Shown here one piece after another: positions 13,669 to 42,273 of a DNA stretch of 42,273 nucleotides. Every line of letters starts with the position of its first letter. The first letter of the stretch is position 1. Source of the DNA: a virus. The DNA is taken from the IMG/VR virus record IMGVR_UViG_3300042451_001200, positions 1-42,273 of that record; one strand, written 5' to 3'. The position numbers were made by a program, and so were the translations under genes. Below the pieces are notes generated by a model, which ran no database searches, was not told the origin of the DNA, and saw only the letters and a program-made list of their open reading frames with translations.

Positions 13669-15252
13669 TTAGATTTTTAAATACTCCCACCTAACATTAC
13701 CACAATCAAATATTCTATATATTTTTCTATCGAACATAATTTGTTTTTCTGTTTTTGTTTTATCAAAACCCTCTTTAACTAATACAGATTTTCTAAAATT
13801 AAATCTATGATATCGAATATCATCAATAACGTACCAATAATTTGGTTTTGATTTCCATATTTTACTAAACCCTAAATTACCATACATTTTTCCATCAAAT
13901 AATCTTATATCAGAGTATGATATAATTTTTTCAGGGTTGTATGTTTTTTTAAAAAAACTAAATAATTTTGATGCCGCCCCAACAACATTAAAATTAATTT
14001 TATTACAAAATCTAGTTAATTCCCACTCATCTTTTTTACCTCCAAGTATAACCCTTCCTTTTGAAAAGGTCATTAATGATACTAACTCCTCATTAAAAAA
14101 AAGACCGATTTTGACTTTTGAATTTACGTTACCCTGTATATGGTTATCGTCCAAAAAAATTCGGGATTCATTATCTTCAACTTGTTTTATTTTACATTGT
14201 CTTGCAAATATTTTATTGTCTATTAAACCCAATTTATTTAACAATATGGATTTAACTATTTCTTTTTTATATAACCACTCATCCTCAAATATCTGAATTA
14301 AATCAATTCCATTTTCATTACATATATTGTTTTTATTTAAATGATATTTATCCGATTTAAATAATTCATTATGCCAATACACTCCATTTATCTTAATACC
14401 TAAGTTATTTTTAGGTATTAATATATCAATTTCTAATTTTTTGGGTAACCCTCTATACGATTGAATAACCTCAACGTTTTTACTTAATAAAAATTCCGAT
14501 AATTCGTTTTCATAACCGCTTCTAGAATTTTGACCTATAGGATTACAAATAGTACAAACATCATAATTTCTTTTATATCTCTCATACAAAAGTTGTTTGG
14601 TTAATGAACTATCTTCTCCACATTTATCACAATTGATACTAACCAACATTCCGTCAATTGTGTTTATTTTAATCCCTTTATATTTTTCTTTAAAGGAATT
14701 TGAAATTTTTTCCTTATAAAAATCACTATAAACTATATTTTCCTTCCCATATTTATTTAAAATTGTTTTCTTTTGTTTTTCTAAATTGTTATAATTTTCG
14801 TCCCCATATTTTTCAAACTTAGTTATTTTACTTTTCTCTGTATTATTATAATTCTCACTTCCGTATTTTTCTTTTTTAGTTTTTTTTTGTTTGTTTATAA
14901 AATCTTTATGTTGGGGGTAATAATCTACGGAATACTTTAAGTTAAAAGCATTTTTTTGTCTTTTGGACATTTCTTCCTTGTTTTTGTTTATACAGAGTAG
15001 GGAACAAAATTCTCCGTATGGATTGTCAAACCTTTCTCTAAACTTTACATCAGAATTACAAGTAACACATTTTGGTCTTTCTGTTAAGTTATTATAATAG
15101 AACCAAATTCTTTCTTTAAAAGAAAGTTGTAATGTAAATTTAGATGAATAATTTAATATTTTTTCGTATAATTCTGGATGGTTTTTAGATAACCAAGATT
15201 CTTTGGTTTTGTACCCAGATTTATTGTCTGTTATAAAAAAAGAAAATTCCAT
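13669..15252 (-). CDS. Free-standing homing endonuclease, Vsr-like nuclease with zinc ribbons
   Basis: A 527-residue protein of the large phage homing-endonuclease type. Zinc-ribbon cysteines are C62/C65/C83/C87 and C208/C211/C233/C236. Residues 120-175 hold three KKxxxKYGxENYNN-like repeats typical of these DNA-binding regions. The nuclease core is residues 248-330: LEIDILIP (D276), the Tyr-Trp-His of VYWH, YHLNKNNICNENGIDLIQ and IFEDEW. The C-terminal part (HIQG near 375, LMTFSKGRVILGG, ELTRFCN, SYSDIRLFDG) is the usual accessory domain. The family normally has Glu in IE(Y/F)NGxYWH; here it is Lys (K287), so catalysis may be altered. It sits between tail tube and chaperone genes, a typical intrusion, and is probably dispensable. 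It has a promoter-like element just before its ATG. Confidence 0.8.
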   Translation of the reverse strand: MEFSFFITDNKSGYKTKESWLSKNHPELYEKILNYSSKFTLQLSFKERIWFYYNNLTERPKCVTCNSDVKFRERFDNPYGEFCSLLCINKNKEEMSKRQKNAFNLKYSVDYYPQHKDFINKQKKTKKEKYGSENYNNTEKSKITKFEKYGDENYNNLEKQKKTILNKYGKENIVYSDFYKEKISNSFKEKYKGIKINTIDGMLVSINCDKCGEDSSLTKQLLYERYKRNYDVCTICNPIGQNSRSGYENELSEFLLSKNVEVIQSYRGLPKKLEIDILIPKNNLGIKINGVYWHNELFKSDKYHLNKNNICNENGIDLIQIFEDEWLYKKEIVKSILLNKLGLIDNKIFARQCKIKQVEDNESRIFLDDNHIQGNVNSKVKIGLFFNEELVSLMTFSKGRVILGGKKDEWELTRFCNKINFNVVGAASKLFSFFKKTYNPEKIISYSDIRLFDGKMYGNLGFSKIWKSKPNYWYVIDDIRYHRFNFRKSVLVKEGFDKTKTEKQIMFDRKIYRIFDCGNVRWEYLKI

Positions 15253-15908: not shown

Positions 15909-16868
15909 CTAGTTTATATTATATAATTTATTTTTAATTCTTTTAATTAAATAATCTTCATTAATATTTTCATCTTCTTTTATTCTATTAATTACCAGTT
16001 TTCTCATTCCTCCCTCAGAAGTGTCTTTAACAATGAATTTAATTTCAGGATACATAACTGATAATTCGTCTTCTATGTGTTGAATCATACTTTTAACATT
16101 TCTAACGTCATCGTCAGAGAACCCTAAAGAAACAGAACCATATTTTCCACTTTTAATTAAATGTCCAACTTTATCATAAACTTTTTCTATAAAATCAGAT
16201 AATGCGATTTTTTTGGAATGTTCAGGACTTGACGCACCTCCAGCAGAGTCTAATTTAAATCTTTTACCAAACTCAGGTGATGAAACAGGGTAGTATTCCC
16301 CCTTCTCATCTAAATAAATGTCTATTAATTGTTTGTCATCATTTTTACCTAATTTATAATACCCACCCAAATCCTCAAATTCAAAAACATTTTTAATGTT
16401 ATTAATCATCGTGTCTTTTTCTTCGGGAGATAATACAGAATCGATAAAAAGTTTGACACCCTTTTTAATCACATTTGGACTATGACCTCTCGCGGTGATT
16501 ATGGAGAATGGACTCGCTTTGATTAACGCCTTCTTAAAACCAATAAAACTAGGTGACAATCTATTTTTCTTAATTGCCTCCATAGTGTCAGTTAAAAAAG
16601 TTTCGTGGTGAGTAAAATCTCTAAATGCGTTATTATCCAAATTTATAATAGTTTCTCCTTCATACTCAAAAGGTTCTTTACCTATCATACTTCTATAATG
16701 AGCAAAATCATCGGTCGACATTCCAACAACACCACCATTATCGGTTTTAAGATAAATTTTAGTCGGCATTCTTAAAATATTATCGTCCCAATCTAAAGCA
16801 AATAACTTTAATTTTCTGCGATTAACGTCTTCTAATAAAACTTTTTTAATTAAATTTCTAATACTCAT
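15909..16868 (-). CDS. HAD-superfamily phosphatase-like protein
   Basis: A 319-residue protein with HAD hydrolase motifs. Motif I is LFALDWDDN, with the nucleophile Asp at 26 and a second acid at 28. Motif II is FSIITARGHSP around 121-131. An acidic GFSDDD motif at 249-254 matches motif IV. HAD enzymes usually remove phosphate from small molecules, nucleotides or proteins; the substrate cannot be read here. The N-terminus (SIRNLIKKVLLEDVNRR) is a short amphipathic basic helix, possibly a targeting or virion-association tag. It lies between sheath and tube genes, normally neighbours, so it may be a virion or assembly protein or an insertion. A terminator and promoter-like element precede it, giving it its own transcription unit. 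Confidence 0.7.
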   Translation of the reverse strand: MSIRNLIKKVLLEDVNRRKLKLFALDWDDNILRMPTKIYLKTDNGGVVGMSTDDFAHYRSMIGKEPFEYEGETIINLDNNAFRDFTHHETFLTDTMEAIKKNRLSPSFIGFKKALIKASPFSIITARGHSPNVIKKGVKLFIDSVLSPEEKDTMINNIKNVFEFEDLGGYYKLGKNDDKQLIDIYLDEKGEYYPVSSPEFGKRFKLDSAGGASSPEHSKKIALSDFIEKVYDKVGHLIKSGKYGSVSLGFSDDDVRNVKSMIQHIEDELSVMYPEIKFIVKDTSEGGMRKLVINRIKEDENINEDYLIKRIKNKLYNIN

Positions 16869-21584: not shown

Positions 21585-22100
21585 TTATAAACCTCTAAAT
21601 TCATTATCAACAACTGCGGATGCCATTATTGTTCTATAATAAGGTCTTGTTCCCGCGTAATTGTGTTTATTATCTGAAACAACTCTACCATCATTATTTA
21701 CGGTATAATATCTAACTCTATCTTCAGTTTCATAATAACCAATATAATCACCAAAACTAATATCAATACCCAACTCATCTAAATGTTTTTGATAAACAGA
21801 TAATTTCATATTACCAGGTTCAAATTGATTTAATTTTGTATTTCCTAAGTTTTTATTTTCAGGTACCATAATTTGAACATATCCTTTAAATTCTACAGGA
21901 GGTAGGAATTTTATACCATCGCTAATAGTTTCACCATAAACATCATCAGTCTTGGTTTTCAACCTATCAACTCTATAAAGAACTAAAGTAAAGTTCATAT
22001 CACCATATAACCATTCTTCACCTATCCCTAAATCAAGTGAAAAATCTTCTTCCGAGAAGAACTTATTCATCCTTGTTATTGGTACTTTGTTTTGTGACAT
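21585..22100 (-). CDS. Neck protein, gp14-like
   Basis: About 171 residues from the ATG at 22100. A longer frame from a TTG at 22115 would run through the promoter-like element, so the ATG is preferred. The features are an aromatic N-terminal half with a DVYGETISDGIKFLPPVEF stretch, FGDYIGYYETEDRVRYYTVN, and a C-terminal region rich in Tyr/Arg (YAGTRPYYRTIMAS). The shape matches T4 gp14-type neck proteins that sit below the portal with gp13. It pairs with the gp15-like gene (three-base gap) and a gp13-like gene lies nearby on the plus strand. Moderately sure that it is a neck or head-completion protein. Confidence 0.5.
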   Translation of the reverse strand: MSQNKVPITRMNKFFSEEDFSLDLGIGEEWLYGDMNFTLVLYRVDRLKTKTDDVYGETISDGIKFLPPVEFKGYVQIMVPENKNLGNTKLNQFEPGNMKLSVYQKHLDELGIDISFGDYIGYYETEDRVRYYTVNNDGRVVSDNKHNYAGTRPYYRTIMASAVVDNEFRGL

Positions 22101-22103
22101 ATT

Positions 22104-22113
22104 GATAAATATC
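22104..22113 (-). promoter_or_regulatory. Candidate phage promoter element (GATATTTATC)
   Basis: Minus-strand GATATTTATC ends 3 bases before the neck gene ATG. It is embedded in the near-palindrome TTGATAAATATCAA, between the divergent neck and helicase genes. Confidence 0.45.
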
Positions 22114-22120
22114 AAAAAAT

Positions 22121-22127
22121 TATTTAT
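22121..22127 (+). promoter_or_regulatory. Weak candidate promoter core (TATTTAT)
   Basis: Plus-strand TATTTAT inside AATTATTTATT, 13 bases before the GTG start of the helicase, the same spacing as at two tail genes. It lacks the preceding A of the consensus. Confidence 0.3.
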
Positions 22128-22140
22128 TTTTAAACATATT

Positions 22141-23904
22141 GTGACAACAGGTCAAACATTTAATTTAATAGAGTTAACCGCTTTAGATATTCTCGATAAA
22201 TACGAGGGGGCGAATAATTTTATCCTTAAATTAAAACAACAAAAAGATTCTAATAAAAAATTCTATCCTACAAGGTCTCAATCAGAATATATTATTAAAA
22301 ACCATTTAGAAACACCTAAAGTCGCTAAAAAATGGGTTGACTTAGATCCGTATTTTGCTAAGAAAATGGCAGATGAAAAACTATACACCAAAATACCTAA
22401 AGAAATTTGGGTTGAAAAATTATTGGCGGAAAAAGAAAAATCTTATCATATTTGGGGTAAATTTTTTAATGATGAGAACATTCACGATTTTTGGGTACCA
22501 AAGGCGGCGTTACTAAAAACCCACGTAATAAAAGAAGTTAAAATAGATTATTCTAAATATTCTCATAGACCACCATTAGAACATCAAAAAATTGCGATTG
22601 AAAAATTAGTTGGTAGTAAGAAGTTTATTTTGGCGGATGATATGGGTTTGGGAAAAACCACGTCAACAATTATTGCAGCGTTAGAGACGGGTGCTAAAAA
22701 AATATTAATCATTTGTCCCGCATCTTTAAAAATAAATTGGGAAAGAGAAATTAGAAACTATACAGATAGAAGTGTTTTTATTTGTGAAGGTAAAAAATTT
22801 TCATTAGAACACGATTTTGTTATTGTTAATTATGATATCTTAAAAAACTTTTACGACATAAAAGAAAAAGAAGATTCATTGATTTATAAATTAAATCCTG
22901 AATTAATTATTATTGATGAAGCTCATTATGCTCAAAACGGACAAGCGAAAAGAACAAAATTAATCAATCATTTTTCTAAAAGGTCTGAAAGACTTTGGTT
23001 ATTAACAGGAACTCCAATGACTAATAGACCTATGAATTATTTTAATTTATTACAATTAATTGAAAGTCCTGTATCTCAAAACTGGATGGCTTACGCCATT
23101 AGGTATTGTCAGGGGTATCAATTTACTGCGGGTAATAGAAAAATATGGAATGTTACAGGCGCATCTAATTTAGAAGAACTTAGAGATAGAACATCAAGAC
23201 AATTTTTAAGAAGATTGAAAACTGAGGTTCTAGATTTACCCGATAAAATAATAACTCCTGTTTATTTAAGATTGTCTTCTAAAGAATATGAAGGTTTAAT
23301 GGGAGAATACTTTAATTGGTATAAAAATAATAAAGAAGAGTCGGGTTCGCTAACAATTCAGTTTTCAAAACTTATGAAAGTTAGACAGGTAATTGCCGAA
23401 GAAAAAGTAGAACACACAATAGAACTTATTCAAAACGTTATAGACCAAGATAAGAAAGTTATTGTTTTTACAAATTTTACTGACACTTTAAATAGAATTG
23501 CGGATCATTTTGGTAAACAGGCGGTAAGATTAGATGGTAGTACCTCAAAACCTCAAAGACAATTTGCGGTCGATCAATTCCAAGAAAACGATAAAATAAA
23601 AATTTTTGTTGGTAATATGAAAGCGGCTGGAGTTGGTTTAACTTTAACATCTGCTGAAGTTGTAATTATGAATGACCTATCATTTGTTCCTGGTGATTTA
23701 TCTCAAGCTGAAGATAGAGCTTACAGATATGGTCAAAAAAATAATGTTTTAGTTTATTATCCTATCTTTGAGAATACAATCGAAGGTATTATTTACGATA
23801 TTGTCAATAACAAGAAATCTATAATTGAGACCGTAATGGGTGATAACCTAAATAAAGGTGATATTGTTGAGGAAATTATGAATAAAATCAATTCAATACG
23901 ATAA
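22141..23904 (+). CDS. SNF2-family helicase/translocase (SMARCAL1-like)
   Basis: About 587 residues from the GTG at 22141; a TTG 54 bases earlier would overlap the divergent neck gene and its promoter element. Motifs of SF2/SNF2 ATPases are complete: DDMGLGKT (166-173), DEAH (259-262), LTGTPMTN, VFTNFTD, an AGVGLTLT block and QAEDRAYRYGQ. Such enzymes move on double-stranded DNA and anneal or remodel stalled forks, a job done in T4 by UvsW and related helicases. The 140-residue N-terminal part is unrecognised, rich in Lys and Trp, and may bind DNA. It leads a plus-strand operon with the dismutase fusion and the gp13-like gene. Family call is firm; the role in replication or recombination is inferred. 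Confidence 0.85.
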   Translation: MTTGQTFNLIELTALDILDKYEGANNFILKLKQQKDSNKKFYPTRSQSEYIIKNHLETPKVAKKWVDLDPYFAKKMADEKLYTKIPKEIWVEKLLAEKEKSYHIWGKFFNDENIHDFWVPKAALLKTHVIKEVKIDYSKYSHRPPLEHQKIAIEKLVGSKKFILADDMGLGKTTSTIIAALETGAKKILIICPASLKINWEREIRNYTDRSVFICEGKKFSLEHDFVIVNYDILKNFYDIKEKEDSLIYKLNPELIIIDEAHYAQNGQAKRTKLINHFSKRSERLWLLTGTPMTNRPMNYFNLLQLIESPVSQNWMAYAIRYCQGYQFTAGNRKIWNVTGASNLEELRDRTSRQFLRRLKTEVLDLPDKIITPVYLRLSSKEYEGLMGEYFNWYKNNKEESGSLTIQFSKLMKVRQVIAEEKVEHTIELIQNVIDQDKKVIVFTNFTDTLNRIADHFGKQAVRLDGSTSKPQRQFAVDQFQENDKIKIFVGNMKAAGVGLTLTSAEVVIMNDLSFVPGDLSQAEDRAYRYGQKNNVLVYYPIFENTIEGIIYDIVNNKKSIIETVMGDNLNKGDIVEEIMNKINSIR

Positions 23905-23937: not shown

Positions 23938-25488
23938 GTGAATAAACTAATTGAAAATATTGAAAAAAGAATTTCTTTAATAAATGAAGAGATTTTTTTA
24001 GAAGAAACCAAACCCCATAAGGAATTTATTATTTCTGAGATGAAAAGAATTGGTATTGAAAAATTACCTTATTCTTATTCCGCATTAAAAAATTTTATTG
24101 ACCCTAAGACAATGGATATCCATTATAATAAACATTATAGGGGGTATGTTGATAAGTTAAACAAGGCCTTATCAAAAAAAGATTATGGTGACGTTGAACT
24201 TGAAAATATTGTTAAATCTATATCAAGATATAATAAAGAAATTAGAAATAATGCCGGGGGAGCTTTTAATCATGCCTTATTTTGGAAAATGTTATCACCA
24301 AAAAAACAAGAAGTTAATGGTAAAATATTAGAAAAGATAAATAAGAAATACGGAACTTTTAACGAATTTAAGAAAAAGTTTGAATCAATTGCGCAGAAAA
24401 GATTTGGTTCGGGTTGGGTTTGGGTAGTCTTAACAAGAAGTGAAAACATTAAAATAGTTTCAACACCAAATCAAGATAACCCATTAATGAATATTATAAA
24501 AAATGGTGGGTTTCCAATATTAGGTTTAGACTTATGGGAACATTCTTATTATCTAAAATACCAAAACAAAAGAGACGAATACATTAAAAACTTTTGGGAT
24601 TACGTTAATTGGGAGTTTGTTAATTCTTTAATCGATAAAAAAACAAAAAAGAAACCTTTAACAGAAACAATAGATAAAAAAAATATTATTTTGGAAGATA
24701 AATTTGAGGGGTGTACAAAAGATGACATATTCGCCATTAGATCCGTTTTCAATATGAATGGGGAGGTTGTTAAAATTTTTAGAGAATGGATAGATAAATC
24801 CATTAAAGAAGTTTTTCCTGACAAATATTACGGAAGAAATGAATATGATGGTAAAAATCTAAGCGGAATTTATAATTTGGAGCAATCCGGTCGATCAATA
24901 ATTAATAAATTAAACACACATTATGTTGGTTTTTGTATTTTATTAAAAGACATTAATAAAGTACTAAGATACGAAGGAAGACCTGAAATTAAAATTATTG
25001 GTGTTAAACCATCCGAACAATTGGAACAAACAAAAAGATTGGGAGAAGAAATATATAGATTTAAAGATAGGATATTTAATGTTGATTCACCAACGTTTAA
25101 AAAAATTATGGATGTTATTACGGGTTCTAACACAAAGGGTCAGAAAAATGAGGATAATGTTATTAAAATTTTAAAAAGTATTTATGGTGATATAAACGTT
25201 AAACCCGTAGGGGCTTTGGGGTCCAAAGAAGATGCTTTATTGGGTATTGATTGTATTGTAACAATTAATGGTAAAGATTACACAATACAAATAAAACCTT
25301 TTGGGGAGATTATTGATGAAGGGGAGCACTATCGAATGAAAGAGACTGGTAAAACCAAGAAATATAACACAGATGTTTTAGCTTTCATTAAGGGGGATAC
25401 AATATATTTATTTAATAATAATAAATCTAAAATTGACCAAGGAGATTTTTATTTACCTAAATCTAGTTTACTGAGAAAAATTAACTAA
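23938..25488 (+). CDS. Mn-type superoxide dismutase fused to a PD-(D/E)XK-like nuclease domain
   Basis: A 516-residue, two-part protein. Residues 40-232 are a full Fe/Mn superoxide dismutase, which converts superoxide to oxygen and peroxide. Metal ligands are all present: H62, H112, D198 and H202 (GLDLWEHSYY), with gateway Y70. NNAGGAFNHALFW and PNQD (Q179) are of the manganese rather than the iron type. A 39-residue helical N-terminal extension precedes it, and M35 could be an alternative start. Residues 250-516 are not recognised as a known family; 436-453 (D438, then Q451 and K453 in YTIQIKP) look like the D...QxK core of restriction-endonuclease folds. The gene lies between an SNF2 helicase and a gp13-like neck gene, with a promoter-like element upstream. 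SOD assignment is firm; nuclease assignment is tentative. Confidence 0.85.
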   Translation: MNKLIENIEKRISLINEEIFLEETKPHKEFIISEMKRIGIEKLPYSYSALKNFIDPKTMDIHYNKHYRGYVDKLNKALSKKDYGDVELENIVKSISRYNKEIRNNAGGAFNHALFWKMLSPKKQEVNGKILEKINKKYGTFNEFKKKFESIAQKRFGSGWVWVVLTRSENIKIVSTPNQDNPLMNIIKNGGFPILGLDLWEHSYYLKYQNKRDEYIKNFWDYVNWEFVNSLIDKKTKKKPLTETIDKKNIILEDKFEGCTKDDIFAIRSVFNMNGEVVKIFREWIDKSIKEVFPDKYYGRNEYDGKNLSGIYNLEQSGRSIINKLNTHYVGFCILLKDINKVLRYEGRPEIKIIGVKPSEQLEQTKRLGEEIYRFKDRIFNVDSPTFKKIMDVITGSNTKGQKNEDNVIKILKSIYGDINVKPVGALGSKEDALLGIDCIVTINGKDYTIQIKPFGEIIDEGEHYRMKETGKTKKYNTDVLAFIKGDTIYLFNNNKSKIDQGDFYLPKSSLLRKIN

Positions 25489-25504: not shown

Positions 25505-26632
25505 ATGTCAATAATCCCTGAGCCAGAAAGAAGTGATTTGTACAAGAAAGTACGTCACTTATTGGGAGCGCCGTTAAGATCTGTAGAAATTGACGATGAG
25601 CAAATGGATACCCTATTAGAATTTTCTATTGATGATTATTCCCAATACGTCCAAGATTGGTTAATTGAATCTCAATGGACATCCTTATTTAATTTAAATT
25701 TGGAAACTCAATCTTTATCAAAGGCATTGGTTTCAAAAACATTAGACTACGAACAAAAATATACTTACGCCTATTCTAAAATTGTTGGATTACAAGCTGG
25801 AGGTGATTCGGTTCTTAAAAAAGATTATATTCAGTTAGTTAGAAATCAACAGATATATGAAATTCCGGCGGGAAGAGAAATTAATGAATTACTTTGGTTT
25901 TCACCCGCAACATTAAACAATGTTATGTTTGACCCTTGGTCTTTTGGAGCATTAGGTGCCGGCGGAGGACTTGGTGGTGGGGGAGGTCTCGCTCAAATGG
26001 GTAATATGGCGGGAGGATACTTTATGATGCCGGCGTTTGATATGTTATTGAGAATGCAAGAAATTAACATACAAAGAAGGGTTATCGCCGGTGATTTAAC
26101 TTATAGAATCACAGCATTGCCTGATGGTAAAAAGGCAATTCATTTAATGAACACTCCAGGAGGTAAATTTGATTTTGGTAATGGAACTCTAACGAGAGGG
26201 CAGGTTTGGTATTGGTATTATGAAGCCGATGGTCCTGATAGAGATAAATGTTTAAAAGACAATCCTGACATAGTAAGATTACCATCTGATGTTCCTTTTG
26301 ATAAAATAAGTTGGGCGGATTTAAATAATCCCTCACAACAATGGGTTAGAAGATGGTTTGTTGCTTATTGTAAAGAAACTTTATCTAGAGTTAGAGGTAA
26401 GTTTAGTGGAAATCTTAAAACTCCCGACTCTGAACTAACATTAGATTATCAATCATTAGCAACTGAAGCTAAAGACGAAAAAAGTAAACTAATTGAGGAA
26501 TTAACCGGTGCTGAAGGTAGACTTACAAGACTAAGACCCGAAAAGGTTATGGAAAGAGAGGCTTTGTTAGCTGAGAATCTTAATAAAGTTAAAAAGTTAA
26601 CCGCAATGCCAAGACAAATATATATCATATGA
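25505..26632 (+). CDS. Neck/head-completion protein, gp13-like
   Basis: A 375-residue protein. The start (YKKVRHLLGAPLRSVEIDDE, residues 13-32, then QMDTLLEFSIDDYSQYVQDW) matches the N-terminal helical region of T4 gp13-type neck proteins, which bind the portal after DNA packaging. Residues 150-175 form a glycine-rich flexible segment (GALGAGGGLGGGGG), and the C-terminus is a charged helix ending in a Lys/Arg-rich tail. It follows the dismutase fusion by 16 bases with an A-rich leader and no own promoter element, and its stop overlaps the next start (ATGA), so these genes are co-expressed. In T4 gp13 is 309 residues; the glycine loop accounts for part of the difference. Confidence 0.65.
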   Translation: MSIIPEPERSDLYKKVRHLLGAPLRSVEIDDEQMDTLLEFSIDDYSQYVQDWLIESQWTSLFNLNLETQSLSKALVSKTLDYEQKYTYAYSKIVGLQAGGDSVLKKDYIQLVRNQQIYEIPAGREINELLWFSPATLNNVMFDPWSFGALGAGGGLGGGGGLAQMGNMAGGYFMMPAFDMLLRMQEINIQRRVIAGDLTYRITALPDGKKAIHLMNTPGGKFDFGNGTLTRGQVWYWYYEADGPDRDKCLKDNPDIVRLPSDVPFDKISWADLNNPSQQWVRRWFVAYCKETLSRVRGKFSGNLKTPDSELTLDYQSLATEAKDEKSKLIEELTGAEGRLTRLRPEKVMEREALLAENLNKVKKLTAMPRQIYII

Positions 26633-27039
26633 TTAAATCTACATTTGCAAAGAAAAAAGTTGGTGATAGACTTATGGTCGACAACAACACAAAATATATT
26701 ATTAATACGGAGACTTCTATTGTCGAAAAAGAAGTTGAAAAAGAAGTATTTGTAATACCGAAATTTAACAAAAAAATTATAACCGATTCTGTGTACACGA
26801 CAAATGGTGAAGATTTTATTGTGTTGAAGGGGTCAGATTATTGTCGTTTAATATTGGACCCTAAAACCACTACCCACATAATTATAAAATCTTTAACAAA
26901 AGGTGTTATTGATTCTAATGGATATAGAATTGATGAGTACTACGATGAACTATCGATAGATAAGGGAGTTTGCGTTGAGTTAGTATTCTTAGATGAATAT
27001 TGGTATGTTACGTCATCTGACGGACTTAAAATGGTTTAA
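26629..27039 (+). CDS. Small beta-rich protein of unknown function
   Basis: A 136-residue protein translated from an ATG overlapping the stop of the gp13-like gene by four bases. The second half is strand-rich with a WYVTSSDG end, a pattern common in small phage virion proteins (head decoration or fibre tips). No catalytic motif, signal peptide or membrane segment is visible. The tight coupling suggests a role together with the neck protein, but this is not shown by the sequence. It ends one base from the convergent HNH gene. Confidence 0.6.
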   Translation: MIKSTFAKKKVGDRLMVDNNTKYIINTETSIVEKEVEKEVFVIPKFNKKIITDSVYTTNGEDFIVLKGSDYCRLILDPKTTTHIIIKSLTKGVIDSNGYRIDEYYDELSIDKGVCVELVFLDEYWYVTSSDGLKMV

Positions 27040-30794: not shown

Positions 30795-31352
30795 ATGTCT
30801 GACAAACTTAAAAAACTCCAAATTAAAAAATTAATACAAGAATACGATTTTTTAACTACGGAAAATGAATATTTAAACCAAATTGTTAATGATAATAAAA
30901 ATTTTTTTTTGGAGTTAACTCAAGAAGCTAGGAAAAAATTAAACAAACCAATATCAGAAGCTAAGATACAAGAAGAAATCGAAAAAAAATCTAAAGAAAA
31001 TAAACCAGAAAATGTTTCAGAATCCACAAAAAGTAAAATAAAAAAAATATATCGAGAAATTGTTAAATTAACACACCCCGATAGAACAAACTCTGAAGAA
31101 TTGGTGGAAGTATACCGAAACGCAACAATTGCCGCTGATAACTACAACATTTTAGAATTATTCCAAATTTGTGTGGAACTTAAAATACCAATTGAATTGG
31201 ATATGGAGGATGTTGACACTTTAAATTTTTTAATTAAAACCAAAAAAGATGAAATAAAAAAAATTGAATGTTCATTTATTTGGTTGTGGGTTAACGCTAA
31301 GGATGATGATGAAAAAAATAAAATAATAACAATGTTTGTTGAACAGACATAA
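30795..31352 (+). CDS. J-domain (DnaJ-like) protein
   Basis: A 185-residue protein. Residues 1-75 are a charged coiled coil. Residues 80-130 form a J-domain: KIYREIVKLTHPDR with the invariant His-Pro-Asp at 94-96, then helix III (EELVEVYRNATIAADNYNI). J-domains stimulate the ATPase of Hsp70 chaperones; a phage one could recruit host DnaK for replication complexes or virion assembly. There is no Gly/Phe region or zinc finger, so it is a minimal type. The C-terminal 55 residues are helical and acidic. It is divergent from DNA polymerase and convergent with the glycosyltransferases. Confidence 0.75.
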   Translation: MSDKLKKLQIKKLIQEYDFLTTENEYLNQIVNDNKNFFLELTQEARKKLNKPISEAKIQEEIEKKSKENKPENVSESTKSKIKKIYREIVKLTHPDRTNSEELVEVYRNATIAADNYNILELFQICVELKIPIELDMEDVDTLNFLIKTKKDEIKKIECSFIWLWVNAKDDDEKNKIITMFVEQT

Positions 31353-31387: not shown

Positions 31388-31405
31388 ATAGTTAAAATTA
31401 ACTAT
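31388..31405. repeat. Inverted repeat at the end of the glycosyltransferase gene
   Basis: ATAGTTAA-AA-TTAACTAT, arms of eight bases, spanning the stop codon of the minus-strand gene and lying 36 bases after the plus-strand J-domain gene. It may end transcription from both sides, but there is no clear T-run. Confidence 0.35.
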
Positions 31406-33446
31406 AATAATTACTTAATTTAATGTATCCCATCTCTTCATATTGTTTTCTATAATTCAATCTATGGACAGAAACGTTACTAATGTGAATTAAACTACCA
31501 AAATCATTTTCAATCGCTAAAGGAGGGTTAACAATACCCTGTTCGAACATTACCGGGAATATTGAATCTGGGGTTAGGTAAACCATTTTATTTTGTTTTA
31601 ATTGGTTTTTTTCGGAAAATTGCTTTATTGAATCGTAAATTTCTTGTGCAGATTCTTTATGTAAATGGTGTACAATTTTTTTCGCAGTATCCATTGGAAA
31701 TATTTGTGCTTGAGCTCCCCATATTGCAAACCCTTTGTTATAAAAACCATAGTAAATTCCATCTCGGTTTGTAATTAAAGATAATTTTTCATTATCCAAA
31801 AAAGAACTTTTAAAGTTGTATTTTTTTTGATACTCCGCATTACTCGTTGTTGTCGGTAAATAACCGATTGTCAAATACTCAACATCGTTGTTTTTATTAA
31901 AATTATCCAAATGTTCTAGTAGTTTTTTCTTAAAATTTTCTTTTAATAAAGAAACGTCATCCTCAAGAACACAGATATAACGTTTATTAGGATAATTTTC
32001 TGTAAATTCTTTAATGGCCGAAATATGACTTCTAAGACAAGATTGTAATTTGTCAGGTGAATATTTATCATTTTTAACCACCCAATCCGAAGAATCTTTT
32101 GGTGTGTAAGCGTTGAAAAATACAACATTACTATGTAAATCAAGTTCAATAAATTGTCTTTTCATAAAATCTAATCTATCTTGATTTGAAGATATAACAT
32201 AAAAAACAATATCATCTATATTAACTTTATCAACATTTTTTTTAATCGGTTTGGTCTCTGTTAAATCTAAATTTGTGTAAAGGTTTTTCATAACATCGTA
32301 AGATAATCCTTCATTACCTTTACCCCTAAATAAGTTTTCGATTAATTTATCATAAGTTCTAACCAAGTCAGGATTGTTAATTGAATACCTATCAAAAACC
32401 TTTTTATTTTTTTCCCTATAATTTTCTAAATTGTTATCGTGGTTCTCGAGTATCCAGTTTAACATTTTTGAACCTTCAACCGTGGATGAACCCTCATAAT
32501 AATAACCCAAATCTTTACACATATACGCGTTATGTAAAACGGGATATCCCATATAAGCAACATCCAAATAAAGATAATTTAAAGGATTCATTAATTGATG
32601 TGAAATAAGAACATCCAAATGTTGGGATACTATGAACGCTGTCTGATATCTGCTTTCAGCACTTATCTTCTTATCTTTGAATAAATCAAAGGTTTTAATT
32701 ATTGATAAAAAACTTTTATGTTTACCTAACTCAGAAGAGTTTGTTAACATTAATTTTTCTATCTTAGATTTACCAATTTCAGTTCTATAAGATTCTTCCG
32801 CAATCATTGTTGGTATTAATGAATATTTAACAATATTCAAATTTGGTTCCATAATACCAAGTGTTTTTTTTTCTTTTGGTTCGTATTTTGAACTTTTTTT
32901 AAATTTACCACTTTTAAATGACAAATCCACAGATTCCAAAGACTCATCTAAATCCTTACTATCCCATAAAAAAGGAACTATAATTGAGTTTGTTCTATAT
33001 AATGTATGATAATAACCATTATTATTTTCGTGTTGTTGTGGAATATACCAAACCTCATCAAAAGATGTTTCGTATTGTGAATTAACACCTTCTTTAAATA
33101 AAGTTTCTTCCATATGAAGAACATAATTATTACCACATTTATAAGACACCACTTTTTTGTTACCCTGACTTTTAAACTTTTTTAAATCATCGTCACTTAC
33201 TTGAGCACCCATAACAAAGATTAAATCCATTTCCATAAATTTTTCATCAAAATTATAAATGTCGATATTATTTAAATAATTTGGTTTTGTGTCCCAGTTA
33301 ACGTTAACGGTATTTAAAATACAAACATCGTATTTTTTGTCGGATTTTTTAAGTAGTCTAACTAAATTAAGGACGTTTAATTTTATACCATTTGTCCAAA
33401 TAGATTCTTTATTGTCTTTCAAACCAATTGTGATTCCAATCTTCAT
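31398..33446 (-). CDS. Bifunctional glycosyltransferase: DUF2827 plus GT25
   Basis: A 682-residue protein. Residues 1-385 match the DUF2827 pattern: MKIGITIGLKDNKESIWTNG, FVMGAQVSDDDLKK, YKCGNNYV, then a GT-B-like second half with SHQLMNPLNYLYLDVAYMG and YPVLHN. Residues 405-682 look like family GT25 (LPS biosynthesis type): VFYVISSNQDRLDFMKRQF, CLRSHISAIKEF and the VLEDDV acidic motif at 493-498. DUF2827 proteins occur in phages and bacteria and are thought to be glycosyltransferases; GT25 adds galactose or glucose to sugars. It follows the 403-aa paralogue by three bases. Targets could be virion fibres or host surface glycans; the sequence does not say which. Confidence 0.75.
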   Translation of the reverse strand: MKIGITIGLKDNKESIWTNGIKLNVLNLVRLLKKSDKKYDVCILNTVNVNWDTKPNYLNNIDIYNFDEKFMEMDLIFVMGAQVSDDDLKKFKSQGNKKVVSYKCGNNYVLHMEETLFKEGVNSQYETSFDEVWYIPQQHENNNGYYHTLYRTNSIIVPFLWDSKDLDESLESVDLSFKSGKFKKSSKYEPKEKKTLGIMEPNLNIVKYSLIPTMIAEESYRTEIGKSKIEKLMLTNSSELGKHKSFLSIIKTFDLFKDKKISAESRYQTAFIVSQHLDVLISHQLMNPLNYLYLDVAYMGYPVLHNAYMCKDLGYYYEGSSTVEGSKMLNWILENHDNNLENYREKNKKVFDRYSINNPDLVRTYDKLIENLFRGKGNEGLSYDVMKNLYTNLDLTETKPIKKNVDKVNIDDIVFYVISSNQDRLDFMKRQFIELDLHSNVVFFNAYTPKDSSDWVVKNDKYSPDKLQSCLRSHISAIKEFTENYPNKRYICVLEDDVSLLKENFKKKLLEHLDNFNKNNDVEYLTIGYLPTTTSNAEYQKKYNFKSSFLDNEKLSLITNRDGIYYGFYNKGFAIWGAQAQIFPMDTAKKIVHHLHKESAQEIYDSIKQFSEKNQLKQNKMVYLTPDSIFPVMFEQGIVNPPLAIENDFGSLIHISNVSVHRLNYRKQYEEMGYIKLSNYYS

Positions 33447-33449
33447 ATC

Positions 33450-34661
33450 TTAATTTTTTTTAAAACATAAGTTTTTTTCTGAATCATAATACATCTCAGT
33501 ATTTCCACCGTTAAATAAATTATGAATTAGTTTATCGTAATTATCAATTAAATCTTCGTTTGTGTTAGAATATTTTTTTAATACCTGTCTATTTCTGTAT
33601 GTATATTCCTCCAAATTTTTATCGTGTTCAGTTAAAATCCAATTTAATTTTTTTGATGCTTCAATCGTATTTGAACCCTCATAATAATAACCCAAGTCTT
33701 TACAAAGAGGTGCATTATGTAAAATAGGGTAACCCATATAAGCAATATCCAAATAAAGATAATTTAAAGGATTTAATAGTTGATGCGAAATAACCACATC
33801 AATATATTGGGTTAAAATAAAACTTGTTTGATACCTTTTTTCTGAAAAAATTTTCTTTTCCTTATATAAATCCAAAGTTTCGATTATGGATAAAAATTCT
33901 TTGTTTGTTGAAATATTTTCCGAATTAGTTATTAATAGTTCTTGTATTCTTTCTTTACCTATTCTTGTTCTATAACTTTGTTCCGCAATTAACGTTGGAA
34001 TCAAAGCGAACTTAACAATATTAATGTTAGGTTCCATAATCCCAATAACCTTTTCTTTCTTTTCCGAATTGTATTTATAACCTTTTTTGTATTCACCTTT
34101 TTTATAACCCATTTCTATGTCGAACAAACCGTCAACAATAAATTTATTATCCCATACAAAAGGAACCATTATTGCGTTTGTTCTATAAAGTGTTCTATAA
34201 AAACCATAATTGGTTTCGTGTTGTTGTGGAATATACCAAATTTCATCAAATTCTTTTTCATATTGGTATATCGTGTTTTTTTCGGGCTCTTTAAATAAAA
34301 TGTTTTCCATTGTAACAACATAGTTGTTTCCACATTTATACCCAATAACTTTTTTATCTTGTTTTTCCTTAAATTTTTTCAAATGAACTTCATCAACTTG
34401 AGCACCCATAGAAATGATTAAATCCATTTCTTTAAATTTTTCATCAAAAAAATAAATGTCGATTCCTTTTAAATAATCAGCCTTTGTCGACCAATCTAAC
34501 TTTACGGTGTTTAGAATACAGACTTCGTATTCTTTTTTTGAACGTTTTAATAATCTGACTAAATTAAGTACATTTAATTTAATACCATTTGTCCATATAG
34601 ATTCATTGGTGGTTTTTAAACTTAATGTGATTCCGATTTTTAATTTTGTTGTTTCTTTCAT
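33450..34661 (-). CDS. DUF2827 family glycosyltransferase
   Basis: A 403-residue paralogue of the first half of the next gene, with the same landmarks: KIGITLSLKTTNESIWTNGI, ISMGAQVDEVHLKKF, YKCGNNYVV, DEIWYIPQQHETN and SHQLLNPLNYLYLDIAYMG. There is no GT25 part; it ends after the segment matching residue 385 of the fused paralogue. The pair is probably a tandem duplication, with the GT25 domain gained by one copy or lost by the other. It is the first gene after the fibre-region terminator, with its own promoter-like element 14 bases upstream. Function: likely transfer of a sugar to a virion or host acceptor. Confidence 0.7.
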   Translation of the reverse strand: MKETTKLKIGITLSLKTTNESIWTNGIKLNVLNLVRLLKRSKKEYEVCILNTVKLDWSTKADYLKGIDIYFFDEKFKEMDLIISMGAQVDEVHLKKFKEKQDKKVIGYKCGNNYVVTMENILFKEPEKNTIYQYEKEFDEIWYIPQQHETNYGFYRTLYRTNAIMVPFVWDNKFIVDGLFDIEMGYKKGEYKKGYKYNSEKKEKVIGIMEPNINIVKFALIPTLIAEQSYRTRIGKERIQELLITNSENISTNKEFLSIIETLDLYKEKKIFSEKRYQTSFILTQYIDVVISHQLLNPLNYLYLDIAYMGYPILHNAPLCKDLGYYYEGSNTIEASKKLNWILTEHDKNLEEYTYRNRQVLKKYSNTNEDLIDNYDKLIHNLFNGGNTEMYYDSEKNLCFKKN

Positions 34662-38585: not shown

Positions 38586-41500
38586 TTAATATACACCGTA
38601 AGTAATAATTGTTGAACCTGAATTAGGAGCCACAGTGAATGTGAATCCAGTTACAAATCCAGACGCATTTGTACCTAATGTGTAATCATTCGTTACCGAT
38701 TGTAACAAACCATTTAAGTAGATTTGTTCTGAACCAGATTTAACAGGGTTTGTTAGAGTAAACACCGCGTTAGAACCATTTACTAATCCTGACGTTGTAT
38801 TTTTTCTACCATAGATTGAATCAAAGTAACCTTTTGTAATTAAGGTTAAATCGTCAAATCCTGCTAATGTATTTGGTTGTACGGACATTTTAGCTAATAC
38901 ACCACTATGTGTTGTTGCTCCACTAAATGTTGTTGTACCACCACTAAATCTGATATCGCCTTGTAATACACGGAACGTTGTAGCTCCACTACCATCTTTA
39001 GCTGGTGCAACTGTTTGTTTTAAACGAACCGTATTGTCAGAAGTGTTAACCTCTAATGTTAATCCGTCTGTAGATGGTAAAGCAACGATTTCAGCGTTTA
39101 AAGATACTTCAACACTTGTACCTCTAGAAATTTCAGAAGAAATTCTTGAACTTAAAGATGTCTCAACACTTTGTGCACGTGATTCTTCGGCAGATACTCT
39201 AGACGTTAATGAAGTATCGGCACTTGCTCTTGTAACCTCTTCAGAAGATACTCTAGTTGTTAAAGACGTTGAACGTGATTCTTCAGCAGATACTCTAGAT
39301 GCTAATGAAGTATCAGCACTTGCTCTTGCAACCTCTTCAGAAGATACACGAGTTGTTAAAGATACTTCAGCACTTGTCGCTCTTGAAGTTTCAATAGATA
39401 CTCTTGTTGTTAAGGAACCTTCAGCAGAAATTGCACGACTCTCTTCATTATCAACATCAACAACTCTATTTGAAATTTCGGCAGATAAAGCATTATTTAA
39501 CGAACTTTCAACTGACTGAGCTCTAGATGTTTCTGAACTTAAACCTGATGACGCGGTAGAAGATAATGCTGTAATAGTATTATTTAAGTTACCGTCAGCA
39601 GATTGGAACGCCGCAACGATTTCAGTTAAAGAATCTAAAGCCGCTGGGTCAGCGTTTGACATAATATTCGCAACCGTTGTAGCTAAAGAAGATTCAACTG
39701 AAGACGCTCTTTGTGTTTCTGAAGAAATTTTATAATCTAAAGAACCTTCAGCCGCCTGAGCTCTACTTTCTTCGGAATATAAACGACTTGTTAAAGAATC
39801 TTCTGATTGAGATGCTCTATTTTCTTCATTAGATAAACGAGAATTTAATGAAAGTTCAACACTTTGAGCTCTATTCTCTTCAGATAATACACGAGAATCT
39901 AAAGATGACTGAGCCGTTGTTCTAACACTTTCTTCAATACCTAAACGAGTATCCAAAGAAAGTTCAGCTCCTGACGCTCTTGACACTTCAGATGATAATC
40001 CACTTTCTAAAGAACCTTCAGCACCTGATGCTCTACTTTCTTCGTTTGATAAACGAGTATCTAAAGATAATTCTGTGTCAAATAAACGATTGTGTAAAGA
40101 CGTATCAATACTTTCCGCTCTAAATATTTCATCTGATAAACTAGAAGCTAAAGAACTTTCAACAGAGTTCGCTCTACTTTCTTCAGAAGATAAACGAGAA
40201 TCTAAAGAACCTTCAACAGAGTTTGCTCTAACTTCTTCAGAAGATAAACGAGAATCTAAAGAACCTTCAGCACCTGACGCTCTACTTTCTTCATTTGATA
40301 AACGAGAATCTAAAGATAATTCAGCGCTAGCTCTATTAACCTCTTCAGAAGATAAACGAGAATCTAAAGATAATTCAGCACTAGCTCTATTAACTTCTTC
40401 ATCTGATACACGAGCGTCTAAAGAACCCTCAACAGATTGTGCTCTAGAAATTTCTGAACTTAAACCTGAAGCTGCCGTTGAAGATAATGTGGTGATTGCA
40501 CCGTTTATATCTCCATCCGCAGATTGAAACGCTCCAACGATTTCTGTTAGAGAATCTAAAGCCGCTGGGTCAACGTTAGAAATAATGTTTGAAATGTTAG
40601 TTGCTAATGAAAGTTCTACCGATTCTGCACGAGATTGTTCAATAGATAAATTATTAGTTAACACTAGTTCTGCAGATTCTGCTCTTGATTGTTCTGCACT
40701 TACTGCAGATTCTCTATTAACAACCTCAGTAGATAGATTATTAGTTAATACTAATTCCGCTGACTCAGCTCTTGATTGTTCTGCACTTACTGCGGATTCT
40801 CTATTAGCGACCTCAGTTGATAGATTATTAGTCAATACTAGTTCTGCAGATTCTGCTCTTGATTGTTCTGCACTTACAGCGTTTTCTCTATTAGCAACCT
40901 CAGTTGATAGATTATTAGTCAATACTAGTTCTGCAGATTCTGCTCTTGATTGTTCAGCGCTTACTACAGATTCTCTATTAACAACCTCAGTAGATAAGTT
41001 ATTAGTAAGAACTAATTCAGCGGCTTCCGCTCTTGATTGTTCAGTACTTACTGCATTTTCTCTGTTAACTACCTCAGTAGATAAATCATTAGTTAATACT
41101 GATTCAGCACTTGTTGCTCTTGATTGTTCAGCACTTACTGCAGATTCTCTATTTGCAACCTCAGTAGATAAATTATTAGTTAATACTAATTCTGCTGACT
41201 CAGCTCTTGATTGTTCTGCCGATAAACCTGAAGTCGCGGTACTACTTAAAGATATAATCGCACCATTCAAATCACCATCAGCAGATTGGAACGCTGAAAC
41301 TATTTCGGTTAATGAATCAATTGCTGCAGGGTCTACATTACTTGTTATAAAATCAATTTGATTCTGTAATGATAAATCACCGGAAATTCTGTTAGAAACT
41401 TCAGCTGATAAATCATTAGTAAGAACTAATTCAGCAGCTTCTGCTCTTGATTGTTCAGCACTTACCGCATTTTCTCTGTTAACTACCTCAGTAGATAAGT

Positions 41501-42273
41501 CGTTAGTAAGAACTAATTCAGCACTTGTTGCTCTTGATTGTTCGGCACTTACTGCAGATTCTCTATTAACAACCTCAGTAGATAAGTCGTTAGTTAATAC
41601 TGATTCAGCGGCTTCCGCTCTTGATTGTTCAGCACTTACCGCATTTTCTCTGTTAACTACCTCAGTAGATAAGTCGTTAGTTAATACTGATTCAGCGGCT
41701 TCCGCTCTTGATTGTTCAGCACTTACTGCAGATTCTCTGTTAACTACCTCAGTAGATAAGTCGTTAGTAAGAACTAATTCAGCACTTGTTGCTCTCGACA
41801 CTTCAGCACTTAATTCTGAAGAAATTTCTACAAATGAATCAACATTACTAAAATCAGTATTTGATAATAAGTAACTTACATCACCTGAAATTCTGGTGTC
41901 TAATGAACCTTCAACACTTTCAGCTCTTGAAATTTCTGCTGATAATGCGTCAGATAATAGACTTTCAAAACTAAATGATCTACTTTCTTCGGAAGATAAA
42001 CGACTACTCAAAGATAATTCCGATGACTCGGCTCTTGATTGTTCTGCACTTACTGCGTTTTCTCTATTAGCGACCTCAGTAGATAAGTTATTAGTAAGAA
42101 CTAATTCAGCCGCTTCCGCTCTTGATTGTTCTGTACTTACCGCAGATTCTCTATTAGCGACCTCAGTAGATAAGTTATTAGTAAGAACTAATTCAGCCGC
42201 TTCCGCTCTTGATTGTTCTGTACTTACCGCAGATTCTCTATTAGCGACCTCAGTAGATAAGTTATTAGTAAGA
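38586..42273 (-). CDS. Long repetitive tail fibre, 5' end beyond the window
   Basis: The frame is open from the stop at 38586 to the right edge, at least 1228 residues; the TTG at 42011 is inside the repeats and is not the start. Most of it consists of about 29-residue repeats of the type SRAESAELVLTNDLSTEV and 12-15-residue SRLSSEESRA units, predicted as a trimeric coiled-coil shaft. Three copies of a NVDPAALDSLTEIVxAFQSA module interrupt it, and TDFSNVDSF begins a divergent fourth. The C-terminal 200 residues are beta-rich (NGSNAVFTLTNPVKSGSEQI, LNGLLQSVTNDYTLG), a typical fibre tip. Such fibres bind the host surface. The strongly biased repeat composition creates long false frames on the other strand. 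Confidence 0.85.
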   Translation of the reverse strand, partial: LTNNLSTEVANRESAVSTEQSRAEAAELVLTNNLSTEVANRESAVSTEQSRAEAAELVLTNNLSTEVANRENAVSAEQSRAESSELSLSSRLSSEESRSFSFESLLSDALSAEISRAESVEGSLDTRISGDVSYLLSNTDFSNVDSFVEISSELSAEVSRATSAELVLTNDLSTEVVNRESAVSAEQSRAEAAESVLTNDLSTEVVNRENAVSAEQSRAEAAESVLTNDLSTEVVNRESAVSAEQSRATSAELVLTNDLSTEVVNRENAVSAEQSRAEAAELVLTNDLSAEVSNRISGDLSLQNQIDFITSNVDPAAIDSLTEIVSAFQSADGDLNGAIISLSSTATSGLSAEQSRAESAELVLTNNLSTEVANRESAVSAEQSRATSAESVLTNDLSTEVVNRENAVSTEQSRAEAAELVLTNNLSTEVVNRESVVSAEQSRAESAELVLTNNLSTEVANRENAVSAEQSRAESAELVLTNNLSTEVANRESAVSAEQSRAESAELVLTNNLSTEVVNRESAVSAEQSRAESAELVLTNNLSIEQSRAESVELSLATNISNIISNVDPAALDSLTEIVGAFQSADGDINGAITTLSSTAASGLSSEISRAQSVEGSLDARVSDEEVNRASAELSLDSRLSSEEVNRASAELSLDSRLSNEESRASGAEGSLDSRLSSEEVRANSVEGSLDSRLSSEESRANSVESSLASSLSDEIFRAESIDTSLHNRLFDTELSLDTRLSNEESRASGAEGSLESGLSSEVSRASGAELSLDTRLGIEESVRTTAQSSLDSRVLSEENRAQSVELSLNSRLSNEENRASQSEDSLTSRLYSEESRAQAAEGSLDYKISSETQRASSVESSLATTVANIMSNADPAALDSLTEIVAAFQSADGNLNNTITALSSTASSGLSSETSRAQSVESSLNNALSAEISNRVVDVDNEESRAISAEGSLTTRVSIETSRATSAEVSLTTRVSSEEVARASADTSLASRVSAEESRSTSLTTRVSSEEVTRASADTSLTSRVSAEESRAQSVETSLSSRISSEISRGTSVEVSLNAEIVALPSTDGLTLEVNTSDNTVRLKQTVAPAKDGSGATTFRVLQGDIRFSGGTTTFSGATTHSGVLAKMSVQPNTLAGFDDLTLITKGYFDSIYGRKNTTSGLVNGSNAVFTLTNPVKSGSEQIYLNGLLQSVTNDYTLGTNASGFVTGFTFTVAPNSGSTIITYGVY
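38950..42273 (-). repeat. Coding repeats of the fibre shaft
   Basis: Tandem degenerate units within the fibre gene. The 87-base unit encodes 29 residues around the motif SAEQSRAE; the shorter unit of 30-45 bases encodes SRLSSEESRA-like helices. Copies differ mostly at synonymous or conservative positions, so the array is maintained by duplication within the gene. Confidence 0.85.
42061..42273 (-). repeat. Identical 87-base tandem repeat at the window edge
   Basis: Two full 87-base copies (42061-42147, 42148-42234) are identical in my reading, and a third begins at 42235 and runs into the edge. Copy number may vary or be collapsed in an assembly. Confidence 0.8.

Follow-up and report, generated by a model that had tools for sequence, protein, structure and literature searches.

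A superoxide dismutase and a nuclease joined in one gene of a large lake phage: a probable cargo precursor with prohead-protease-like linkers

Introduction

Why should a phage carry a superoxide dismutase (SOD) and a nuclease as one polypeptide? The gene that raises this question lies in a stretch of 42,273 nucleotides, hereafter the window, which is a 42-kb fragment of a large lake phage and lacks the head gene cluster. We examined the two halves of the gene product, the stretches that connect them, and the relatives in which the same slot of the genome holds other combinations.

The open reading frame and its neighbours

The open reading frame is real and its phage origin was upheld. Its parts and the conserved genes on either side are as follows.

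22087..23904, plus strand: SNF2-family helicase, conserved on the left side of the slot; start listed as TTG
23938..25488, plus strand: whole open reading frame, predicted precursor of internal proteins, 516 aa, GTG start, without internal stop; tag/linker 1, MnSOD, linker 2 and putative PD-(D/E)XK nuclease
23938..24057, plus strand: residues 1-40, N-terminal tag-like segment with three [LI]xE sites
24058..24633, plus strand: residues 41-232, Mn-type SOD (H62, H112, D198, H202, Y70, Q179)
24634..24705, plus strand: residues 233-256, linker 2, DKKTKKKPLTETIDKKNIILEDKF, with L-T-E243 and I-L-E253
24706..25485, plus strand: residues 257-516, helical region and predicted PD-(D/E)XK nuclease core (E405, D432, D438, Q451, K453)
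25505..26632, plus strand: T4-like head completion/neck protein (phrog_211), conserved right neighbour
26629..27039, plus strand: 136-aa protein, conserved next gene of the plus-strand cluster

The sites of the tag-like segment are I-N-E17, L-E-E23 and I-S-E34, after which the sequence continues with MKRIG; MKKIIRLTESDLTRIVKRVIKEQ is a candidate tag sequence that is an alternative to residues 1-40. The TTG of the helicase gene overlaps a gene on the opposite strand and its true start may be further in. Scans for promoters and terminators between 22000 and 27100 stayed at chance level.

The SOD half

Both SOD domains were recognised well over the curated Pfam cut-offs (Sod_Fe_N, E=1e-22, 80.6 bits against 27; Sod_Fe_C, E=6e-38, 129.3 bits against 20.9), and residues 42-235 match the MnSODs of the PDB with an E-value of about 1e-62. 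Direct reading found H62, Y70, H112, Q179, D198, E201 and H202, all of them invariant in nine full-length homologues. The sequence thus bears out the earlier claim of an intact Mn-type enzyme, which had named H62, H112, D198, H202, Y70 and Q179, and an intact active site is supported at this level. The ligands, the second-sphere glutamine and the gateway tyrosine are common to the Fe/Mn SOD family, in which the Bacteroidota enzymes reach about 50% identity to the phage SOD. Unlike the members of that family, the phage domain has tag-like linkers on both sides and other modules joined to it.

In a tree of SODs a 100/100 branch splits the proteins of this locus from 44 of the 45 cellular SODs sampled, the branching order within the phage group being unresolved. 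The matches obtained in the genome_contigs scan were essentially limited to the SOD, covered mostly residues 40-238 and came nearly all from Bacteroidota. A cellular origin of the fusion was rejected, as the SOD matches in genome_contigs were all without the nuclease. No plasmid match was found for the nuclease of the window. The host is likely to belong to the Bacteroidota, because the closest cellular SODs are from this phylum and the weak matches of the neck protein include Flavobacterium phages; a Microcystis phage, however, is also among these matches. The SOD on a contig of a Fluviicola metagenome-assembled genome (L134) sits among the phage SODs in the tree on a long branch, of length 1.13; a phage contig in the bin or a tree artefact are possible explanations.

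The nuclease half

Sequence searches of residues 257-516 against Pfam, PHROG and the PDB returned no family at a useful E-value. In an alignment of 11 sequences, with identity down to 20%, only ten columns are invariant, and E405, D432, D438, Q451 and K453 are among them (residue numbers are those of the first sequence in the alignment plus 236). The D438...Q451-x-K453 pattern from which a nuclease had been proposed is therefore kept throughout, and it is joined by E405 and D432, which had not been named. The C-terminal half was modelled with AlphaFold2 from nine sequences at a mean pLDDT of 76. Foldseek ranked I-Ssp6803I first among the PDB folds (prob 1.00, E 5e-3), ahead of numerous Hjc Holliday junction resolvases; nothing fell below 1e-3 and the query-normalised TM was only 0.26. 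I-Ssp6803I is a homing endonuclease with the PD-(D/E)XK fold, and TnsA has the same kind of E/D/QxK set.

The C-terminal half shares the predicted fold and the E/D/QxK residues with I-Ssp6803I and Hjc; about 113-147 of its 280 residues align with them, no sequence similarity was detected, and the phage protein has an additional helical region at its N-terminal side. Since only the core aligns, membership of the PD-(D/E)XK nucleases is supported at the level of the predicted fold only. To that extent the original nuclease call was upheld, by the invariant E/D/D/QxK set and by a fold search that retrieved a nuclease core.

One slot with many modules

The same join of SOD and nuclease was found in nine contigs from different metagenomes (L002-L010), at 43-55% identity and with conserved synteny. 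As it recurs in independent contigs, an error of assembly or annotation is ruled out, and the search for the same two-domain order in phage and metagenome sequences was answered by these same contigs. The fusion is also already in the databases without comment. The best match in BFVD to the model of the C-terminal half was a protein of 501 aa from an uncultured phage (UniProt A0A6J5L953, "superoxide dismutase" [uncultured Caudovirales phage]), which has the same C-terminal fold (TM 0.77, 36% identity); its entry name mentions the SOD, with the nuclease and the cut-site linkers absent from it.

A scan of IMG/VR found 152 stretches that encode a relative, of which the best 80 were kept. The gene order was compared in 14 neighbourhoods as far as the loci reach: the tail sheath and proteins of 345 aa and 170 aa lie on one strand, and the helicase, the SOD gene, the neck protein and the small protein lie on the other; the gene for DNA polymerase B follows. 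The protein in the slot between helicase and neck consists of an optional HExxH metalloprotease, then the SOD, then a swappable C-terminal module. This last may have either of two nuclease folds, bear a third motif that resembles a nuclease, be a small domain, or be missing. At least six combinations of modules occur in this slot; the forms recorded were these.

SOD and nuclease: the window, L002-L010
HExxH protease and SOD alone: L021, L024, L059
Protease, SOD and nuclease: L011, L014, L080
Protease, SOD and a second nuclease type, "RGxDFE..PxD..iSxK": L025, L036
Protease, SOD and a third type, "KADL..FEVKxMD": L072, L078
SOD and two nuclease-like modules: L023, L041
Small C-terminal domains: L017, L067, L076

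A model of the second nuclease type (pLDDT 82) best matched the restriction endonuclease Eco15I, in its N-terminal domain (E 2.9e-4, prob 1.00); NhoI and further restriction enzymes came next. The third type can be called a candidate nuclease from its motif only. The HExxH domain was recognised by eye, with HEW[VI]H and EDEAN invariant in 16 sequences, and had no match over the cut-off in Pfam. When architectures were first sorted by regular expressions, 24 protease-bearing proteins were left over, partly because they are fragments at contig edges or SOD-only forms and partly because of their lettering; a later alignment assigns several of them to the second nuclease type.

Prohead-protease-like sites in the linkers

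In T4 the prohead protease gp21 cleaves after L/I-X-E, and the internal proteins carry N-terminal propeptides of 10-19 residues that target them to the head (PMC9026906). The protein of the window likewise has a short propeptide-like stretch with [LI]xE at its end, ahead of the predicted mature domain. Among 21 representatives of less than 90% identity, linker 1 has 9.5 [LI]xE sites per 100 aa and linker 2 has 5.9, whereas the SOD core has 0.62 and the C-terminal domains have 1.17. Charged helical linkers favour E and L, for which shuffles within the linkers that preserve composition provide the control, and none of 2000 reached the observed count. The glutamates of the linkers lie at fixed offsets (-24/-18/-7 and about +7/+15-17) with a variable middle residue, and nine full-length homologues all keep E34, E243 and E253 in linkers that otherwise vary. 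These counts are partly non-independent, the sequences being of common descent; as a cross-check on shared ancestry, the [LI]xE pattern persists ahead of unrelated C-terminal modules. Proteins without such a module (L021, L024, L059 and others) end where linker 2 would start. The linkers thus look like carriers of conserved, predicted sites for a prohead protease.

The protease itself is known from relatives, the head cluster being outside the window: the gp21 family (PF03420) was found over the cut-off in eight of 12 large contigs of relatives, in the cultured Flavobacterium phage immuto, which yielded no SOD, and in two phages that have a SOD, PA5oct and Vibrio 2.275.O. Predicted sites also lie at the expected propeptide end of the major capsid proteins: "SFLINE|ATGEG" in a 296-kb relative and "QIVSE|ANVTG" in immuto.

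Two other phage SODs were also noted. The stand-alone SOD of Vibrio phage 2.275.O (L110, 2968-3537; 28% identity) ends in KMLDESVNIRHLINFISK, which is very like linker 2; as the motif forms a C-terminal tail there, it is not strictly a tag of the module that follows. The SOD homologue of PA5oct (EST35_0261, annotated as hypothetical; L111, 2956-3504) begins with MNDSIKKYISIAEAASS, which fits an I-x-E|A site.

Tags on other genes of the lineage

The 296-kb relative has 32 open reading frames with short N-terminal tags, which fall into three classes. Eleven of the tags are near-identical 22-mers (MKKIIRLTESDLTRIVKRVIKE) on eleven bodies without detectable similarity, and the LTExDL pattern occurs in the open reading frames of this genome at N-termini only. 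One tagged gene lies two genes from gp21, and in immuto the tag-like genes cluster just upstream of the terminase, portal, gp21 and capsid genes; the 5'-3' deoxyribonucleotidase of immuto (109856-110455 of the record) has a tag-like start. Elsewhere, small tagged genes are inserted near the SOD gene (L056 4290, L061 2310, L023 9179, L008 2072). A tblastn search of cultured phages with a 23-aa tag found nothing, a result of little weight with so short a query.

If the modules are cargo, their stand-alone copies are expected to carry tags, and this expectation was confirmed in part. About 12 stand-alone paralogues of the small C-terminal module of L017 and L076 occur in the 296-kb relative. Several are immediate neighbours of the SOD gene, and most begin with "MKII[IS][TS]E[NS]QYKLIKEN". 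The nuclease type of the window stands alone in four relatives. The copy in G005 starts with MKIVITESQYKNLIIEQ, a clear tag; the other three are without a textbook tag and each adjoins a tagged gene. The copy of a 735-kb phage (L082 5743) is without a clear tag, and no relatives of this stand-alone domain were found in IMG/VR. No N-terminal tag is obvious on the zinc-protease module itself.

On contig G001, that of L018, there are about 12 paralogous proteins of 150 aa (for example at 78977-79426, 238754-242671 and 283644-284162), mostly with the tag MKIIITESQYKLIKEN, one copy being fused to the SOD. The window itself holds one further gene with a tag-like start:

15909..16868, minus strand: 319-aa protein whose gene lies between those for tail sheath and tail tube; its N-terminus, MSIRNLIKKVLLED, resembles a tag

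This protein had no family in Pfam and looks HAD-like when read by eye; it may be a further tagged cargo protein of this phage.

A cargo precursor for the phage head

We consider it probable that the gene encodes a modular, protease-cleavable precursor of cargo that is targeted to the head, cut by gp21 and injected. What can be read from the letters comprises the modules, the intact catalytic residues, the site-like linkers, the gp21 of the relatives and the shared tags; packaging, cleavage, injection and the biological targets are what we infer from them. The tag-like segments ahead of the SOD and of the nuclease would bring the precursor into the prohead core, where a protease of the T4 gp21 type would cut after E17, E23 and/or E34 and also after E243 and/or E253. 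An active MnSOD and a PD-(D/E)XK nuclease would then be released inside the head and enter the cell together with the DNA. The SOD may clear superoxide during or just after entry, and the exchangeable nuclease may attack non-self DNA, be it the host chromosome, a plasmid or a competing phage. Selection to cut different DNA, of the sort seen in conflict systems, may explain why nuclease types replace one another in this slot.

T4 heads have been loaded with nucleases, EcoRI and staphylococcal nuclease among them, by means of the T4 targeting sequence (PMC9026906, PMC9024508), so a packaged nuclease is tolerable, and an active SOD is packaged in the virion of chlorovirus PBCV-1 (PMC7019647). No virion proteomics of a close relative was found in the literature, and that of MIJ3 identified only four major bands and is uninformative. 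The "ESI-MS/MS" note in the record of the PA5oct SOD was set aside as weak proof of a virion protein; the ribonucleotide reductase and the thymidylate synthase bear the same note.

The original prediction saw here a SOD joined to a nuclease in an operon with the helicase. To read this as a single bifunctional enzyme is probably the wrong frame, the join being one of at least six combinations, with conserved prohead-protease-like sites in the linkers. A protein that stays whole in the infected cell, in which the SOD shields a DNA-processing nuclease or its substrate and acts with the helicase, would account for a single uninterrupted reading frame, two intact active sites and a co-oriented SNF2 gene. 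Yet the nuclease is optional and exchangeable, relatives having no C-terminal module, another nuclease fold, a small domain or a protease; the linkers hold conserved [LI]xE sites, and the nuclease domain also exists as a tagged stand-alone version. We regard this reading as unlikely. The neighbours that had been named are indeed present and conserved; the helicase operon is uninformative, and it is the tagged cargo genes and gp21 that are informative. Protection of DNA or the virion from oxidation, also proposed earlier, is compatible with the cargo model.

The tags might instead be real and sort the protein elsewhere (to the membrane, a replication compartment or a host complex), with the [LI]xE sites cut by another protease or left uncut. 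They are indeed short and amphipathic-looking, and only their resemblance to T4 propeptides links them to the head. Nevertheless they end in the gp21 consensus, the capsid proteins have matching sites, a tagged gene lies close to gp21 in the 296-kb relative, and tag-like genes lie just upstream of the head genes in immuto, which makes such sorting quite improbable. Most improbable of all is that the protein is a structural component of neck or head, neither cut nor injected, with the SOD and nuclease folds as scaffolding. The neck protein gene is adjacent and the gene order is kept in all relatives examined, but pure scaffolding needs no catalytic residues and those of the SOD, the nuclease and the HExxH domain are invariant; the module content is also too variable.

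The cargo precursor proposed here is best compared, by consensus and architecture, with the T4 internal proteins (IPI, IPII, IPIII and Alt; PMC9026906), which likewise have short N-terminal segments ending in [LI]xE, a gp21 (here in relatives) and varied cargo behind a common tag. In contrast to T4, two or three enzymes are joined in one polypeptide with internal sites, and the putative cargo consists of SOD, HExxH protease and exchangeable PD-(D/E)XK nucleases. The Cu/Zn SOD A245R of PBCV-1 is also virus-encoded, and is expressed late and packaged in the virion (PMC7019647); it differs in being a single-domain protein of another SOD family from a eukaryotic algal virus, and protease-site linkers are unreported for it. 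The antirestriction proteins DarB/Dar of phage P1, likened here by their description, are large, have an N-terminal signal into the head and are thought to enter the cell (PMC9024508); they are not known as a polyprotein of SOD and nuclease.

A wider reading, to which we give an even chance, is that giant T4-like phages, probably of Bacteroidota, use lineage-wide tags and polyproteins of joined cargo genes to deliver an arsenal at infection, with the prohead protease as both polyprotein processor and activator. This arsenal would comprise SOD, metalloprotease and exchangeable restriction-like nucleases, carried in with the help of dozens of capsid-targeting tags. Should the model hold, cargo could be read off the sequences of uncultured phages: any open reading frame that has the tag, or is flanked by [LI]xE linkers, would be predicted to be injected. 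The candidate injected phage proteins would then come to include SOD, an HExxH protease and restriction-like nucleases that can be exchanged, and in these tailed phages the head protease would also serve to process polyproteins. The swapping of nuclease modules in the slot would be a sign of an arms race early in infection, within its first minutes, and foreign proteins could be loaded into the head of such a phage by means of its packaging tag.

Other genes of the window

Two adjacent DUF2827 proteins are encoded on the minus strand at 31398-34661 (E 5e-93 and 6.5e-94), and the first of them has an additional glucosyltransferase-like C-terminal part; a role of the pair in glycosylation of DNA or of the surface is possible. 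On the plus strand, at 30795-31352, a 185-aa protein gave a partial match to the DnaJ domain (E 2.6e-4), below the cut-off. A homing/HNH endonuclease gene (13669-15252, minus strand) is inserted between the tail tube and baseplate hub genes. Finally, the minus-strand gene at 38586-42011 encodes a protein of 1141 aa with repeats of SAEQSRAESAELVLTNDLSTEV, which is probably fibre-like; the open reading frames on the opposite strand are shadows of the repeat.
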